Assembly: GCF_001403735.1 (NCBI RefSeq)
Contig: NZ_CXPG01000021.1
Coordinates: forward strand, 1 to 64,000
From: Jannaschia rubra
Lineage (GTDB): Bacteria; Pseudomonadota; Alphaproteobacteria; Rhodobacterales; Rhodobacteraceae
Reading direction: 5' to 3'
DNA length: 64,000 bases
Every line of letters starts with the position of its first letter. Position 1 is the first letter of the stretch. Below, one piece after another: positions 47,659 through 50,821 of this stretch. A model generated the notes under the pieces. The model was given only the letters and a program-made list of their open reading frames with translations, did no database searches and was not told the origin of the DNA. The translations under genes were made by a program, and so were the position numbers.

Positions 47659-48039
47659 TCAATTCACCTGAACCTGCGGAGGCGCGCCGTTTCCGAAGAG
47701 ACCGTTCTGCGGCGGCGCAACGGTGCCCGCGGGCGCGGAACCGCGCGCAGCGGGTCGGTCATCGTCATCGTCGTCGTAGTCCAGCTCGATAACCCGGAGC
47801 GTCGCCGGATCGAGTTTGACCTCGATCTGACGGCCGTTGCTGTCGCGACCCTCGATCTCGTAGCAACCGTCGTCGGTCTCGACGTCCCGGACGGTCCAGC
47901 CGTTCTGTTCGGCCAGCTGCATCACGGCCGCGCGCGGTTGCCACCGGTCGCGGGGAGCCGAGCATTCATCGTCGTCGGCAAGCGCCGCGCCGGCAGGCAG
48001 GAAGGCAATGGCGGCAAGGGCAGTCAGGGTGATCTTCAT
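47659..48039 (-). CDS. Exported PepSY-domain protein with acidic tail (copy 1)
   Basis: A 126-residue exported protein: signal MKITLTALAAIAFLPAGAALA, then a single PepSY domain (WQPRAAVMQLAEQNGWTVRDV; DDGCYEIEGRD; VKLDPATLRVIELDYD) and a poly-Asp stretch with a Pro/Gly-rich tail. Two cysteines (ADDDEC and DDGCYE) could form a disulfide. It is a tandem paralogue of the protein at 48273-48650. Upstream is a four-box operator shared with that copy. Related genes commonly sit next to two-component systems. Confidence 0.87.
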   Translation of the reverse strand: MKITLTALAAIAFLPAGAALADDDECSAPRDRWQPRAAVMQLAEQNGWTVRDVETDDGCYEIEGRDSNGRQIEVKLDPATLRVIELDYDDDDDDRPAARGSAPAGTVAPPQNGLFGNGAPPQVQVN

Positions 48040-48084
48040 GGCAGGGTCTCCTTTGGTCTGCTGGGACCAATCTGGAGAGCCGAC

Positions 48085-48133
48085 CTGAGGTTTTCCTGAC
48101 GCCGAAGCGCTTTCTGCTTCAGCTTGCCGTCAG
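48085..48133. promoter_or_regulatory. Four-box operator upstream of PepSY copy 1
   Basis: Two direct-repeat pairs face away from each other: CTGA-N7-CTGA at 48085-48099 (TCAG-N7-TCAG on the minus strand) and TCAG-N7-TCAG at 48119-48133, with a 19-bp gap. An 11-bp repeat spacing is one DNA turn, as bound by OmpR/PhoB-type response regulators. The same arrangement recurs at 48702-48750. The response regulator encoded at 48796 is the probable binder. Confidence 0.7.
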
Positions 48134-48272
48134 GAAGACGAAGATCCCGCTGGTGGGGCCGTCGGCCTCGGGCGTTCGGGGCGATAAGGGGATATTCACG
48201 CCGGAAGCGCGCCTGTCGTTTGCGAAGACGGCATTGGCGAGCATCTCGCGACCTCATGCTTCCGTTGCAACA

Positions 48273-48650
48273 CTATCGACGGTGAGCCGGATCGTCCCCA
48301 TGTTCGTCCTCGAGGCGTGACGGACGGTCGCGTCGATCGTCGTCGCTTCGGCCACGATGATCCTCGTCCTCGTCCTCGTCCTCGTCCTCGTATTCGAACT
48401 CGATCACCTCAAGCGTGGCCGGATGGACCGTCACCTCGATCGGACGCCCCCCGGCATCCCGACCGTCGATCTCGTAGCAGCCATCGTCGATCTTGATCCG
48501 GCGAACCGTCCATCCGTTCCGCTCGGCCAACCGGGCCACGGACTCGCGCGGCTGCCAATCGGCCATCGGCACGAAGCAGTCGTCGTCCGCCAGCGCGATG
48601 CCGGCCGGAAAGACCGCGAGAAAGCCGAGAATTGGCAATGTCTTCGTCAT
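48273..48650 (-). CDS. Exported PepSY-domain protein with acidic tail (copy 2)
   Basis: A 125-residue paralogue of the neighbouring copy: signal MTKTLPILGFLAVFPAGIALA, PepSY domain (WQPRESVARLAERNGWTVRRI; DDGCYEIDGRD; VTVHPATLEVIEFEYE), then an Asp/Glu repeat from a TCCTCG hexamer array and a tail rich in Asp, Arg and His. The acidic and His-rich tail could bind metal. It is divergent from the response regulator gene with a four-box operator between them. The duplication includes gene and promoter. Confidence 0.87.
   Translation of the reverse strand: MTKTLPILGFLAVFPAGIALADDDCFVPMADWQPRESVARLAERNGWTVRRIKIDDGCYEIDGRDAGGRPIEVTVHPATLEVIEFEYEDEDEDEDEDHRGRSDDDRRDRPSRLEDEHGDDPAHRR
48361..48390. 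repeat. Five copies of a 6-bp repeat coding for Glu-Asp
   Basis: TCCTCG occurs five times in a row inside PepSY copy 2 and encodes alternating Asp-Glu on the minus strand. Unit changes keep the frame, so the acidic tail length can vary by slippage without breaking the gene. Confidence 0.9.
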
Positions 48651-48701
48651 GGACCACACTCCCGCGGGCACGCCTGTCAGCACCAGCCATGCGCGGCGAA
48701 G

Positions 48702-48750
48702 CTGACGGGAACCTGAAGGGGCAGGCTTGCCGGCTTCAGCTTCGCGTCAG
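48702..48750. promoter_or_regulatory. Four-box operator between PepSY copy 2 and the response regulator
   Basis: CTGA-N7-CTGA at 48702-48716 and TCAG-N7-TCAG at 48736-48750, separated by 19 bp, exactly the geometry of 48085-48133. It sits in the 145-bp divergent region, so one regulator could control both directions, including its own gene. Confidence 0.72.
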
Positions 48751-48795
48751 CCGGAGGGGTCATGACGTGTCATCGGGCAAGGGACGGGAACCGCC

Positions 48796-49455
48796 ATGCG
48801 CATCCTGCTGATCGAGGACGACACGGTTCTGGGCGCCGCCGTGCGCGACCAGATCACCGCCGATGGCCATACGGCGGACTGGGCCACGCGCCTCGATTCG
48901 GCCGGCGAAGCGGTGCGGAGCGCGTCGTTCGATCTCATCCTGCTCGACCTGATGCTGCCGGACGGGCGCGGCGTCGGGTTCCTGAAGGCCCTGCGGGCAA
49001 GGGGTGACGTGTCGCCGGTCATCATCCTGACGGCTCTCGACCAGATCTCGGACCGGATCGACGGACTGAACGCGGGCGCGGACGACTATCTCGTCAAGCC
49101 CTTCGACCTTGCGGAGCTGTCCGCCCGGATCGGAGCGGTCGCCCGGCGCTACAGCGGCAATCCGAATCCCATCCTGACCCACGGGCCGCTCGACATCGAC
49201 CTGGCGGCCCGCAGCATTCACCGCGACGGAAAACCCATCCAGCTGACGGCGCGCGAATGGGCGCTGTTCGAAGCCCTCCTTGCGCGACCGGGTCAACTGT
49301 TGTCCAAGGCGCAACTTGAGGAAAAGCTCTATGCTTTCGACGCCGAGGTCGGGAGCAACACCATCGAGTTGCACGTCAGCCGCCTTCGCAAGAAACTCGG
49401 AAGCGCGATCATCGAGACGGAGCGCGGCATGGGCTACAGGCTCGGCAAGCCATGA
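48796..49455 (+). CDS. OmpR/PhoB-family response regulator
   Basis: A 219-residue DNA-binding response regulator. The receiver domain (1-115) has the acidic pocket IEDD, the phospho-acceptor Asp in ILLDLMLPDG (about residue 51) and the Lys in DDYLVKPFD. The winged-helix output domain (about 128-219) has LTAREWALFEALL and NTIELHVSRLRKKLG. It resembles the QseB/PmrA subgroup. Its stop overlaps the kinase start. The duplicated TCAG-N7-TCAG operators nearby are the likely targets. Confidence 0.94.
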   Translation: MRILLIEDDTVLGAAVRDQITADGHTADWATRLDSAGEAVRSASFDLILLDLMLPDGRGVGFLKALRARGDVSPVIILTALDQISDRIDGLNAGADDYLVKPFDLAELSARIGAVARRYSGNPNPILTHGPLDIDLAARSIHRDGKPIQLTAREWALFEALLARPGQLLSKAQLEEKLYAFDAEVGSNTIELHVSRLRKKLGSAIIETERGMGYRLGKP

Positions 49456-50821
49456 GGTCGGCGCGCAGCCTTCAGGCGATGCTCGGCCTATCGCTGCGCA
49501 TCGTGCTGACGGTTCTCTGGCTGCTGGCCGCCGCGGTGACTGCGGTGATCGTGCGCGGCGAGATGGACGAGGTCTTCGACAGCGCCCTGCGCGAGACGGC
49601 CGAGCGCATCCTGCCGCTTGCCGTGACCGAGATCGTCGGGCGAGAAGACGAAGGAGTGACGCAGAGGCTCGCCCCGATCCGGGAGCATGACGAGTTCTTC
49701 ACCTATCTCGTGCGCGATGCGGAGGGGCGCATCCTGCTGCAATCGCATGCAGCGGTCCCGGCCCTGTTCCCGCCCTACAGCCGTCCGGGTTTCGCCGAGA
49801 CAGCGACGCACCGGCTCTACAGCGACGCGGTGCTCGGGGGGACGATCCGGATCACCGTGGCCGAACCGCTGGCCCACCGCACGTCGGTCGCGCGCGAGAT
49901 CCAGGTGGGCCTTGGCCTGCCGCTGCTGATCGTGCTGCTCGTGGCGCTGGCCGCGATCGTCCTGGCCGTCCGCATCAGTCTCGCTCCCTTGCGCCGGTTC
50001 CGGACGCGGCTCGGAAATGCGGGGCGTCCGGGATCTGTCCGAGGTTCCCGCGGACAACCTCCCCACGGAGATCGTCCCGCTGGCGGCGACCTTGAACGGC
50101 CTTCTGGTCAGGTTGCGCGCGGCCTTCGCGGCCGAGCGCAGCTTCGCGGCCAATGCCGCGCATGAATTGCGGACACCCCTCGCCGGTGCGGTCGCGCAGG
50201 CGCAGCGGCTTCGGGCGGAGACGCGCGACGCGGCCGCCGAAGCGCGGGCGGCCGAGATCGAGGCGACGCTGAAGCGGCTGACGCGCCTTTCCGAACGCCT
50301 GATGCAGCTTGCGCGGGCGGAAGGAGGGCGACTGCGCATGGACCAAAGCGCGGATCTGAGGACGGTCGCGCGGATCGTCGTGGACGATCTTGGGCGCACG
50401 GACGCGCCGGGCCGCATCGCGCTGACATTGCCGGGCAGGGCCGTCATGTCGGACATCGACCCCGACGCCATCGGAATCCTGTGCCGGAACCTCGTGGAAA
50501 ACGCGGTCCGCCACGGCACACAGACCGCCCCGGTCGGACGTGACCCTGACGCAGGAGGGGCGGCTGATCGTGGCGAACGACGGACTTGTCCTGCCGCGTG
50601 AAACCTTCGATCGTCTGACGGCCCGCTTTGAGCGCGCGGGCGCGCGTACCGACGGCAGCGGACTCGGCCTCGCCATCGTCGCCGCGATCGCGGAAAGGAT
50701 CGGAAGCCACCTCGTTCTGGACTCGCCGCGCCCCGGCGCATCATCCGGTTTTCAAGCGTCCATCTGGTTGCCGACAGAGGTTCCGCTGACCTCCGAGAAG
50801 GGCGCGGTGTCCGACGCGTGA
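49452..50821 (+). pseudogene. Sensor histidine kinase interrupted by two frameshifts
   Basis: Coding matter for a QseC/PmrB-like kinase of about 455 residues is spread over three frames. Frame 1 gives two membrane helices around a periplasmic domain (to SLAPLRRF, near 50000). Frame 2 gives the HAMP end, the H-box AANAAHELRTPLAG and the N-box CRNLVENAVRHG (to about 50535). Frame 3 gives DGSGLGLAIVAAIAERI and the C-terminus. One extra base in GGTTCCGG near 50000 and one in GTCGGACG near 50536 account for both shifts; removing each restores PLRRFGRGSEMRG and TAPVDVTLTQEG. Sequencing error is possible, otherwise the gene is broken. Confidence 0.88.

Follow-up and report, generated by a model that had tools for sequence, protein, structure and literature searches.

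Introduction

The nearest described counterpart of the operator reported here is the site of BqsR, an activator that recognises TTAAG-N6-TTAAG, two pentamers with a strict 6-bp spacer; one BqsR promoter carries four pentamers, the last overlapping the -35 element, of which the third and fourth are critical and the first and second add to the effect (PMC4682146; this and the other papers cited are drawn on in excerpt). BqsS binds Fe2+ (PMC12666569). We report a four-box operator, CTGA-N7-CTGA-N19-TCAG-N7-TCAG, present twice in the first 64,000 nucleotides of contig NZ_CXPG01000021.1 of Jannaschia rubra (this whole stretch is called the window, and all positions refer to it), where it borders the gene for an OmpR/PhoB-family response regulator (RR) and two genes for small PepSY proteins. 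As with BqsR/CarR of Pseudomonas aeruginosa, for which a four-pentamer promoter is known, each half of the site holds two pentamers with 6 bp between them and an 11-bp period. Unlike the BqsR/CarR sites, it has a TCAG core, in boxes resembling TTCAG or GTCAG, and does not fit TTAAG-N6-TTAAG; the two pairs are inverted across a near-fixed gap of 19-20 bp, the outer box falls between the putative -35 and -10, and the genes likely to be regulated form a flavoreductase cluster. In the pho box of PhoB, a direct-repeat pair takes the place of -35, about 10 bp before -10. The site described here would likewise put a direct-repeat pair in the -35 place, but it has a second, inverted pair upstream.

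The genes behind the operators are those of the flavinylated PepSY-like clusters (DUF2271, PepSY_TM, ApbE and, at times, VIT), for which ferric reduction has been proposed; in these, DUF2271 is flavinylated at [S/T]GA[S/T], and the clusters are reported to be Fur-repressed in Shewanella and Caulobacter (PMC8238504). In Caulobacter, a similar operon is under Fur, and insertions in the operon lower fitness in EDTA (PMC12004947). Unlike the reported Fur-repressed clusters, the one studied here has an adjacent two-component system and conserved operators of its own, on which our searches of open-access papers listed none. From the comparisons below, we consider it probable, with some confidence, that both sites are operators of the adjacent PmrA/QseB-like RR, the outward pairs activating three promoters and the averted pair, that is, the pair pointing away from the gene, contributing.

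Two four-box operators in the Jannaschia rubra window

Operator 1 (48085..48133) and operator 2 (48702..48750), neither of which is assigned to a strand, match CTGA-N7-CTGA-N19-TCAG-N7-TCAG exactly, with the geometry and at the coordinates that the original prediction, made from the letters of the window, had given. The 11-bp periodicity that it had read in the direct repeats is present as well: box starts are 11 bp apart in both pairs of both operators, a direct-repeat period as in OmpR/PhoB sites. Operator 2 is placed between the divergent PepSY2 (minus strand) and RR (plus strand) genes. Operator 1 lies 45 bp upstream of the PepSY1 gene (minus strand), which heads a DUF2271-flavoreductase-ApbE-ATPase series, and no divergent gene was recognised behind it in the window. 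The gene content was also read correctly, since Pfam confirmed the RR, with a kinase, beside operator 2 and assigned both small proteins to PepSY_2.

A four-box search of the window allowing up to 3 mismatches gave two matches, both with 0 mismatches, where 0.16 (standard deviation 0.44) were expected by chance; two matches were obtained in 3 of 100 shuffles. When the whole genome (3.66 Mb, 27 contigs) was searched with up to 2 mismatches, operators 1 and 2 were the only four-box sites, and the reversed control pattern gave 0 sites in the same search.

Conservation of the operator and its link to the response regulator

The exact pattern was detected in 10 of 100 relative genomes, all from the same family, and in 0 of the 40 genomes from other families among them; the reversed control gave 0. 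All ten genomes also carry a close RR. The original prediction had proposed a search for paired boxes in the genome and its relatives and had named a lack of conservation before orthologous PepSY genes as the result that would speak against it; this outcome was looked for and did not occur. When the gap was left free (4-34) in 394 family genomes, a match was found in 101 and a control match in 3 (control counted by eye). Among the 75 forward places listed, counted by hand, the gap was 19 in 58, 20 in 5 and 9 in 7, and five other gaps occurred once each; one of the 58 gap-19 places (L024) has no locus protein within 1.5 kb and may be a chance match.

Relatives were then approached by protein. 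A search with the RR (E <=1e-60) hit 32 of 120 family genomes at 36 places, 30 of which were used as loci. With the 200 bp before the RR gene considered, 27 of these 30 have four boxes with at most 1 mismatch; the boxes lie 40-58 bp from the gene, with gap 19 in 20 loci and gap 20 in 7. The four-box site was absent in L062 (RR 70% identity), L065 (70%, single pair) and L070 (53%), and the operator was also absent, in longer stretches, at the remaining six RR places (L101 and L105-L109; five at 52-53% identity, one at 65%). When every gap between 0 and 60 was allowed, the 30 loci (107,219 bases) contained 28 exact sites with gap 19, 5 with gap 20 and 0 with any other gap. Fetching by similarity to DUF2271 instead (28 places in 27 of 120 genomes), we found the operator (<=1 mismatch) within the stretch at 24 places.

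Relatives were also fetched by DNA alone. The strict pattern CTGAC-N6-CTGA-N19-TCAG-N6-GTCAG was scanned in 84,980 species genomes and matched in at least 117 stretches, 80 of them taken as loci, where about 4 matches would be expected by chance in the full collection (an estimate from 257 billion bases over 4^18). Proteins of this locus are encoded in 77 of the 80 listed loci: 55 have the RR within 200 bp plus a gene of the PepSY/DUF2271 operon within 300 bp, 12 the operon gene alone, 3 the RR alone, and in 7 the locus proteins are farther off. No locus proteins were found in the other three (L128, L140, L173). Going by the titles, most of the listed organisms belong to various orders of Alphaproteobacteria.

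Both operators recur in relatives. In 61 loci with the RR and a divergent DUF2271 gene, operator 2 (<=1 mismatch) was found in 58, and where RR and DUF2271 are over 450 bp apart (52 loci) a second operator (<=1 mismatch) was found in 43; part of these 61 and 52 loci had been fetched by the pattern, and shuffled stretches gave 0 second operators in 1220 trials. Among 16 loci with that distance which were fetched by the RR alone (L075-L103), operator 1 was present in 10. A chance origin of the four-box sites is ruled out by their conservation, the reversed controls and the gap counts. A strict tie of the operator to DUF2271 is ruled out too, by five loci (L082, L083, L085, L099, L110) in which it lies beside RR and PepSY genes with no recognised DUF2271. 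The operator was absent from L095 and L101, whose RRs show 65-70% identity and have neither PepSY nor DUF2271 recognised beside them.

The operator could in principle belong to another regulator such as Fur, the RR being merely a neighbour, and in favour of this, operons of the kind are reported to be under Fur in Caulobacter and Shewanella (PMC8238504, PMC12004947). We regard it as highly improbable. The 11-bp direct-repeat layout is of the OmpR/PhoB type, and the site goes with the RR: the four DUF2271 places without the operator have no RR in the stretch (L265, L267), an RR remnant (L258) or an RR of about 70% identity with a broken site (L257).

Two loci deserve a separate description. In L258 (genome G119), only the last quarter of the RR (residues 163-218, 75% identity) stands beside the DUF2271 operon, the kinase is next and the operator is gone, which looks like a deletion that removed operator and regulator together. 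In L112 (G311), the effector operon has two operators and no RR in the stretch, and another operator lies beside an RR about 30 kb off on the same contig, an arrangement that suggests control at a distance.

Position of the operators relative to putative promoters

A set of 146 distinct operators was assembled (138 with gap 19 and 8 with gap 20): the pattern scan gave 102, genome stretches 42 and the window 2. A side was classed as gene-facing when it looks onto a recognised gene start no more than 260 bp away. Of the gene-facing sides, 184 of 194 have an A at exactly 12 bp beyond the outer box (+12), versus 5 of 35 averted sides, the latter all belonging to operator 1. By class, sides with the +12 A number 78 of 82 where they face the RR gene, 72 of 77 where operator 2 faces PepSY or DUF2271, and 34 of 35 where operator 1 faces its gene. 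Two groups do not enter this comparison. One is the far sides of 5 RR operators for which no gene was recognised on that side; the +12 A is there in 5/5. The other is 29 operators with no recognised gene to either side; of these, 26 have the A on a single side and 3 on both. The simplest reason for the A in these groups is unrecognised genes.

In both location and identity, the +12 A is what the second base of a -10 element should be; therefore the outward TCAG-N7-TCAG pair would sit at about -37 to -23 and replace the -35. In the window, the +12 A is found at all three candidate promoters, and a T is found at +12 on the averted side of operator 1. The predicted -10 elements are at 48761..48766 (plus strand, A at 48762) for the RR, at 48686..48691 (minus strand, A at 48690) for PepSY2 and at 48069..48074 (minus strand, A at 48073) for the PepSY1 operon. 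Transcription would then be expected to start near 48773 (RR), 48679 (PepSY2) and 48062 (PepSY1), some 23 bp beyond the outer boxes. As far as sequence can tell, these are promoters of the pho-box type (class II), with a direct-repeat pair for -35 and a fixed distance to -10. A scan of 47600-48900 for consensus sigma-70 promoters gave 0 promoters, as expected if the promoters are activator-dependent, and a terminator scan of the same interval gave 0 terminators. A function of the boxes as an RNA hairpin is ruled out: being upstream of the inferred -10, they should not be transcribed.

Repression would also fit the overlap of the gene-facing pair with the core promoter: with the boxes covering -37 to -23, a bound RR could block polymerase until the signal arrives. 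This we consider improbable, since no consensus promoter that polymerase could use alone was found between 47600 and 48900, and the fixed 12-bp distance from the box to the -10-like A suits an activator that replaces the -35. An activator in the -35 place needs a fixed distance to -10, as is the case for PhoB, and PmrA is an activator. BqsR is one as well (PMC4682146).

The averted pair and the gap between the pairs

Second operators picked with a tolerance of 2 mismatches number 46. Averted and gene-facing pair are each intact in 44 of them, and the gap is 19 in 46/46. Directly behind operator 1, a terminator-like, GC-rich hairpin, mostly with a T run, was seen by eye in 14 of 18 rows and resembles the 3' end of a preceding gene; the exceptions are the window, L112, the second L114 row and L084, whose hairpin lacks the T run. 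Seven loci have the averted CTGA pair only before the RR gene (L098, L121, L130, L144, L156, L177, L189), 4-5 of the 8 bases of the gene-facing pair being different. In five of them, L098 and L177 being the exceptions, a TA is still present roughly where the -10 usually stands, which speaks for a role of the averted pair.

Each operator might instead consist of two independent one-dimer activator sites placed back to back, with no contact between the pairs and a gap fixed by descent. Operator 2 agrees with this, as it has the +12 A on both sides in 70 of the 77 cases with a gene on each side, and so do two gammaproteobacterial relatives, in which the pairs are 36 bp apart and each has its own +12 A. 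Operator 1 does not agree: the +12 A is rare on its averted side, yet the averted pair and the gap are kept. Nor do the averted-pair-only loci, five of the seven having a TA in the absence of a gene-facing pair. We therefore consider independent sites unlikely. Joint action of both pairs is likelier, given that the averted pair is kept where no gene is recognised behind it and that five of the seven averted-pair-only loci keep the TA. The original prediction had taken a conserved 19-bp gap to suggest that both pairs must be bound at once. The near-fixed gap and the likelier joint action agree with it in part; the gap is nevertheless 19 or 20, and 36 in the two gammaproteobacterial relatives, so that joint binding is not universal and a fixed gap is not always needed.

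A second operator class, one DNA turn shorter (CTGAC-N6-CTGA-N9-TCAG-N6-GTCAG), was observed in 9 of 198 family genomes, with 0 for the reversed control. In the gap-9 loci (L019, L028, L033, L038 and L232-L239), another RR is near the operator in 12/12; in 10 its identity is 36-39%, and in the other 2 it is a short end piece. In L028, L033 and L038 this RR is preceded by a small acidic PepSY-like gene, and RTX-type GGxGxD repeats were seen by eye on the other side in L019 and L033.

The response regulator and its kinase

The RR (48796..49455, plus strand) has a receiver domain (Response_reg, E 8e-24) and a winged-helix Trans_reg_C domain (E 1.7e-20), both above the Pfam cut-off. Its best NCBIfam matches are PmrA (208.1 bits, cut-off 330) and QseB (196.9, cut-off 345), both below the family cut-offs, and its nearest solved sequences are those of BasR; against the PhoB family it scores 154 bits (cut-off 296). 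It is thus described here as PmrA/QseB-like. We compared the outer-box base (CTGAC versus CTGAA) with residues of the DNA-binding half of the RR, and no residue passed the 85% rule among the systems compared, five of which have CTGAA.

The sensor histidine kinase (49452..50821, plus strand) is split over three frames, with 2CSK_N, HisKA and HATPase_c in three separate open reading frames. Among the complete kinase reading frames compared, 86 of 87 have at least 446 codons from stop to stop, and the middle piece in the window has 223. If the break is real, another kinase may serve the operators here, or these sites may be decaying.

The genes behind the operators

PepSY2 (48273..48650, minus strand; PepSY_2, E 1.2e-25) is a small protein with an acidic tail, and PepSY1 (47659..48039, minus strand; PepSY_2, E 8.1e-29) a small protein with an acidic run. 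PepSY1 is followed, all on the minus strand, by a DUF2271 protein (47148..47618, E 4.4e-34), which carries TGAS and is a likely ApbE substrate; by a PepSY_TM protein fused to flavodoxin and NAD-binding reductase domains according to Pfam (44927..47140, translated from 47140, the start codon being approximate); by ApbE, an FAD:protein FMN transferase (43921..44946, Pfam E 2.2e-75); and by a heavy-metal P-type ATPase (41883..43814), above the cut-off of NCBIfam TIGR01525. The ATPase has SPC and HEGGT motifs, which we take to be those of the Co/Zn/Fe group of P-type ATPases. With PepSY_TM (PF03929), ApbE and a DUF2271 protein bearing the [S/T]GA[S/T] motif, the locus matches the flavinylated PepSY-like clusters as defined in PMC8238504.

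Plasmid pNS6003 has the gene order found here, continuing with a P-type ATPase and a VIT protein. Between its two operators (gaps 19 and 20, at the expected places), in the interval from PepSY2 to operator 1, it has a gene for a ferric-reductase-like membrane protein that is absent from the window. In the window this interval (48134-48272) is 139 bp; it is longer in many relatives. VIT and ferric-reductase-like genes occur within the cluster on three plasmids.

Judged from its domains, the operon probably reduces and moves a metal such as iron, through transmembrane electron transfer and periplasmic reduction, and the signal of the kinase is probably a metal, perhaps iron. That the metal is another one (copper, zinc or a rare earth), with the operator mechanism unchanged, is a serious possibility, although we would guess iron first. 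A PepSY_TM protein of Bordetella is reported to support copper oxidases (PMC13038864), a PepSY protein binds lanthanides (PMC11845868), and the ATPase is above cut-off in a family named for cadmium. For iron speak the ferric-reductase-like and VIT genes in the cluster on the three plasmids and the link of such clusters to iron reduction (PMC8238504).

The original prediction had also held that PepSY gene and operator were duplicated together, for which we found no support. The operator also stands directly before DUF2271 in loci where no small PepSY gene was recognised. PepSY1 and PepSY2 of the window share 60% identity, versus 81% and 85% with their positional counterparts in relatives; each is closer to its counterpart than to the other copy, and any duplication is therefore old. 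A tree of 122 PepSY proteins, of which 85 are encoded near the RR and 37 farther away, has few columns and leaves many forks open; for the most part the two groups separate in it, the number of label changes being six versus a shuffled mean of 32. A simple tandem duplication in this genome is ruled out, as both operators occur in relatives and the PepSY copies are old.

Occurrence on plasmids

The RR (E <=1e-80) was found on 98 of 72,556 plasmid records, 70 of which are typed as conjugative. Plasmids of Cereibacter sphaeroides (with RR, kinase and a PepSY gene, and no DUF2271 in the stretch) and of Rhizobium leguminosarum carry the operator with one mismatch. Within the genus, presence is patchy: a close RR was found in 2 of 20 same-genus genomes, and 3 more have an RR at 50%. 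The RR on conjugative plasmids fits this patchy presence. The RR-bearing plasmids include some of Rhizobium, Marinobacter and Enterobacteriaceae.

Discussion

In the mechanism that we favour, each outward TCAG-N7-TCAG pair, spanning about -37 to -23, would bind one RR dimer through its direct repeat. Phosphorylated RR bound in the -35 place would recruit RNA polymerase, with the -10 at a fixed distance outside the pair. Operator 2 would serve two divergent promoters, those of RR-kinase and of PepSY2, and operator 1 a single one, that of a putative PepSY1-DUF2271-flavoreductase-ApbE-ATPase operon. From about -71 to -57, the averted pair would aid the same promoter, most simply via cooperative binding of a second dimer. 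The regulated genes would encode an electron-transfer system likely reducing periplasmic metal, together with a metal-transport ATPase, and the kinase would probably sense a metal.

Several observations weigh against this proposal. Of the 52 loci in which RR and DUF2271 are over 450 bp apart, 9 showed no second operator, and in L098, where both RR and operon are present, the site is broken. The DUF2271 operon of G031 and a second copy in G156 have neither operator nor RR in the stretch; therefore another control exists. The counts include related genomes (exact operator repeats were counted once in the 146-operator set), and the boxes of the 102 of 146 operators taken by pattern are intact by construction. 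Of the five averted-pair-only loci with a TA, four have its A 45 bp past the averted pair and one has it at 46 bp, the distance that a gap of 19 predicts being 46. The gammaproteobacterial relatives with pairs 36 bp apart, each with a +12 A, are plasmids of Citrobacter and Marinobacter (RR 66% identity); the Citrobacter plasmid has 8 bp between the boxes of its RR-facing pair. The kinase frame is broken in this genome, so the switch may not be functional here. Finally, both Glu of the periplasmic ExxE of the kinase are present in 71 of 86 aligned kinases and in 19 of 21 where no exact operator was found; ExxE being as common there, it says little about iron.

A bolder version, which we hold tentatively and rate at a little under an even chance, takes the whole site as one twofold-symmetric 49-50-bp unit. 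Two outward RR dimers would bind it as one body and drive one or two promoters, the averted dimer activating from about -71 to -57. The gap-9 lineage would follow the same plan, helical phase between back-to-back dimers would be a general rule of this RR branch, and the unit would have spread with metal-reductase genes on conjugative plasmids.

The comparison supplies a widespread two-component system with a likely regulon, operator and start sites, and it connects a flavinylated metal-reductase cluster, which is reported to be under Fur in other bacteria, with the sensor kinase and regulator next to it. It also offers a natural comparison for inverted OmpR-type dimer pairs, with single- and double-sided promoters, gaps of 9, 19, 20 and 36, and averted-pair-only promoters.

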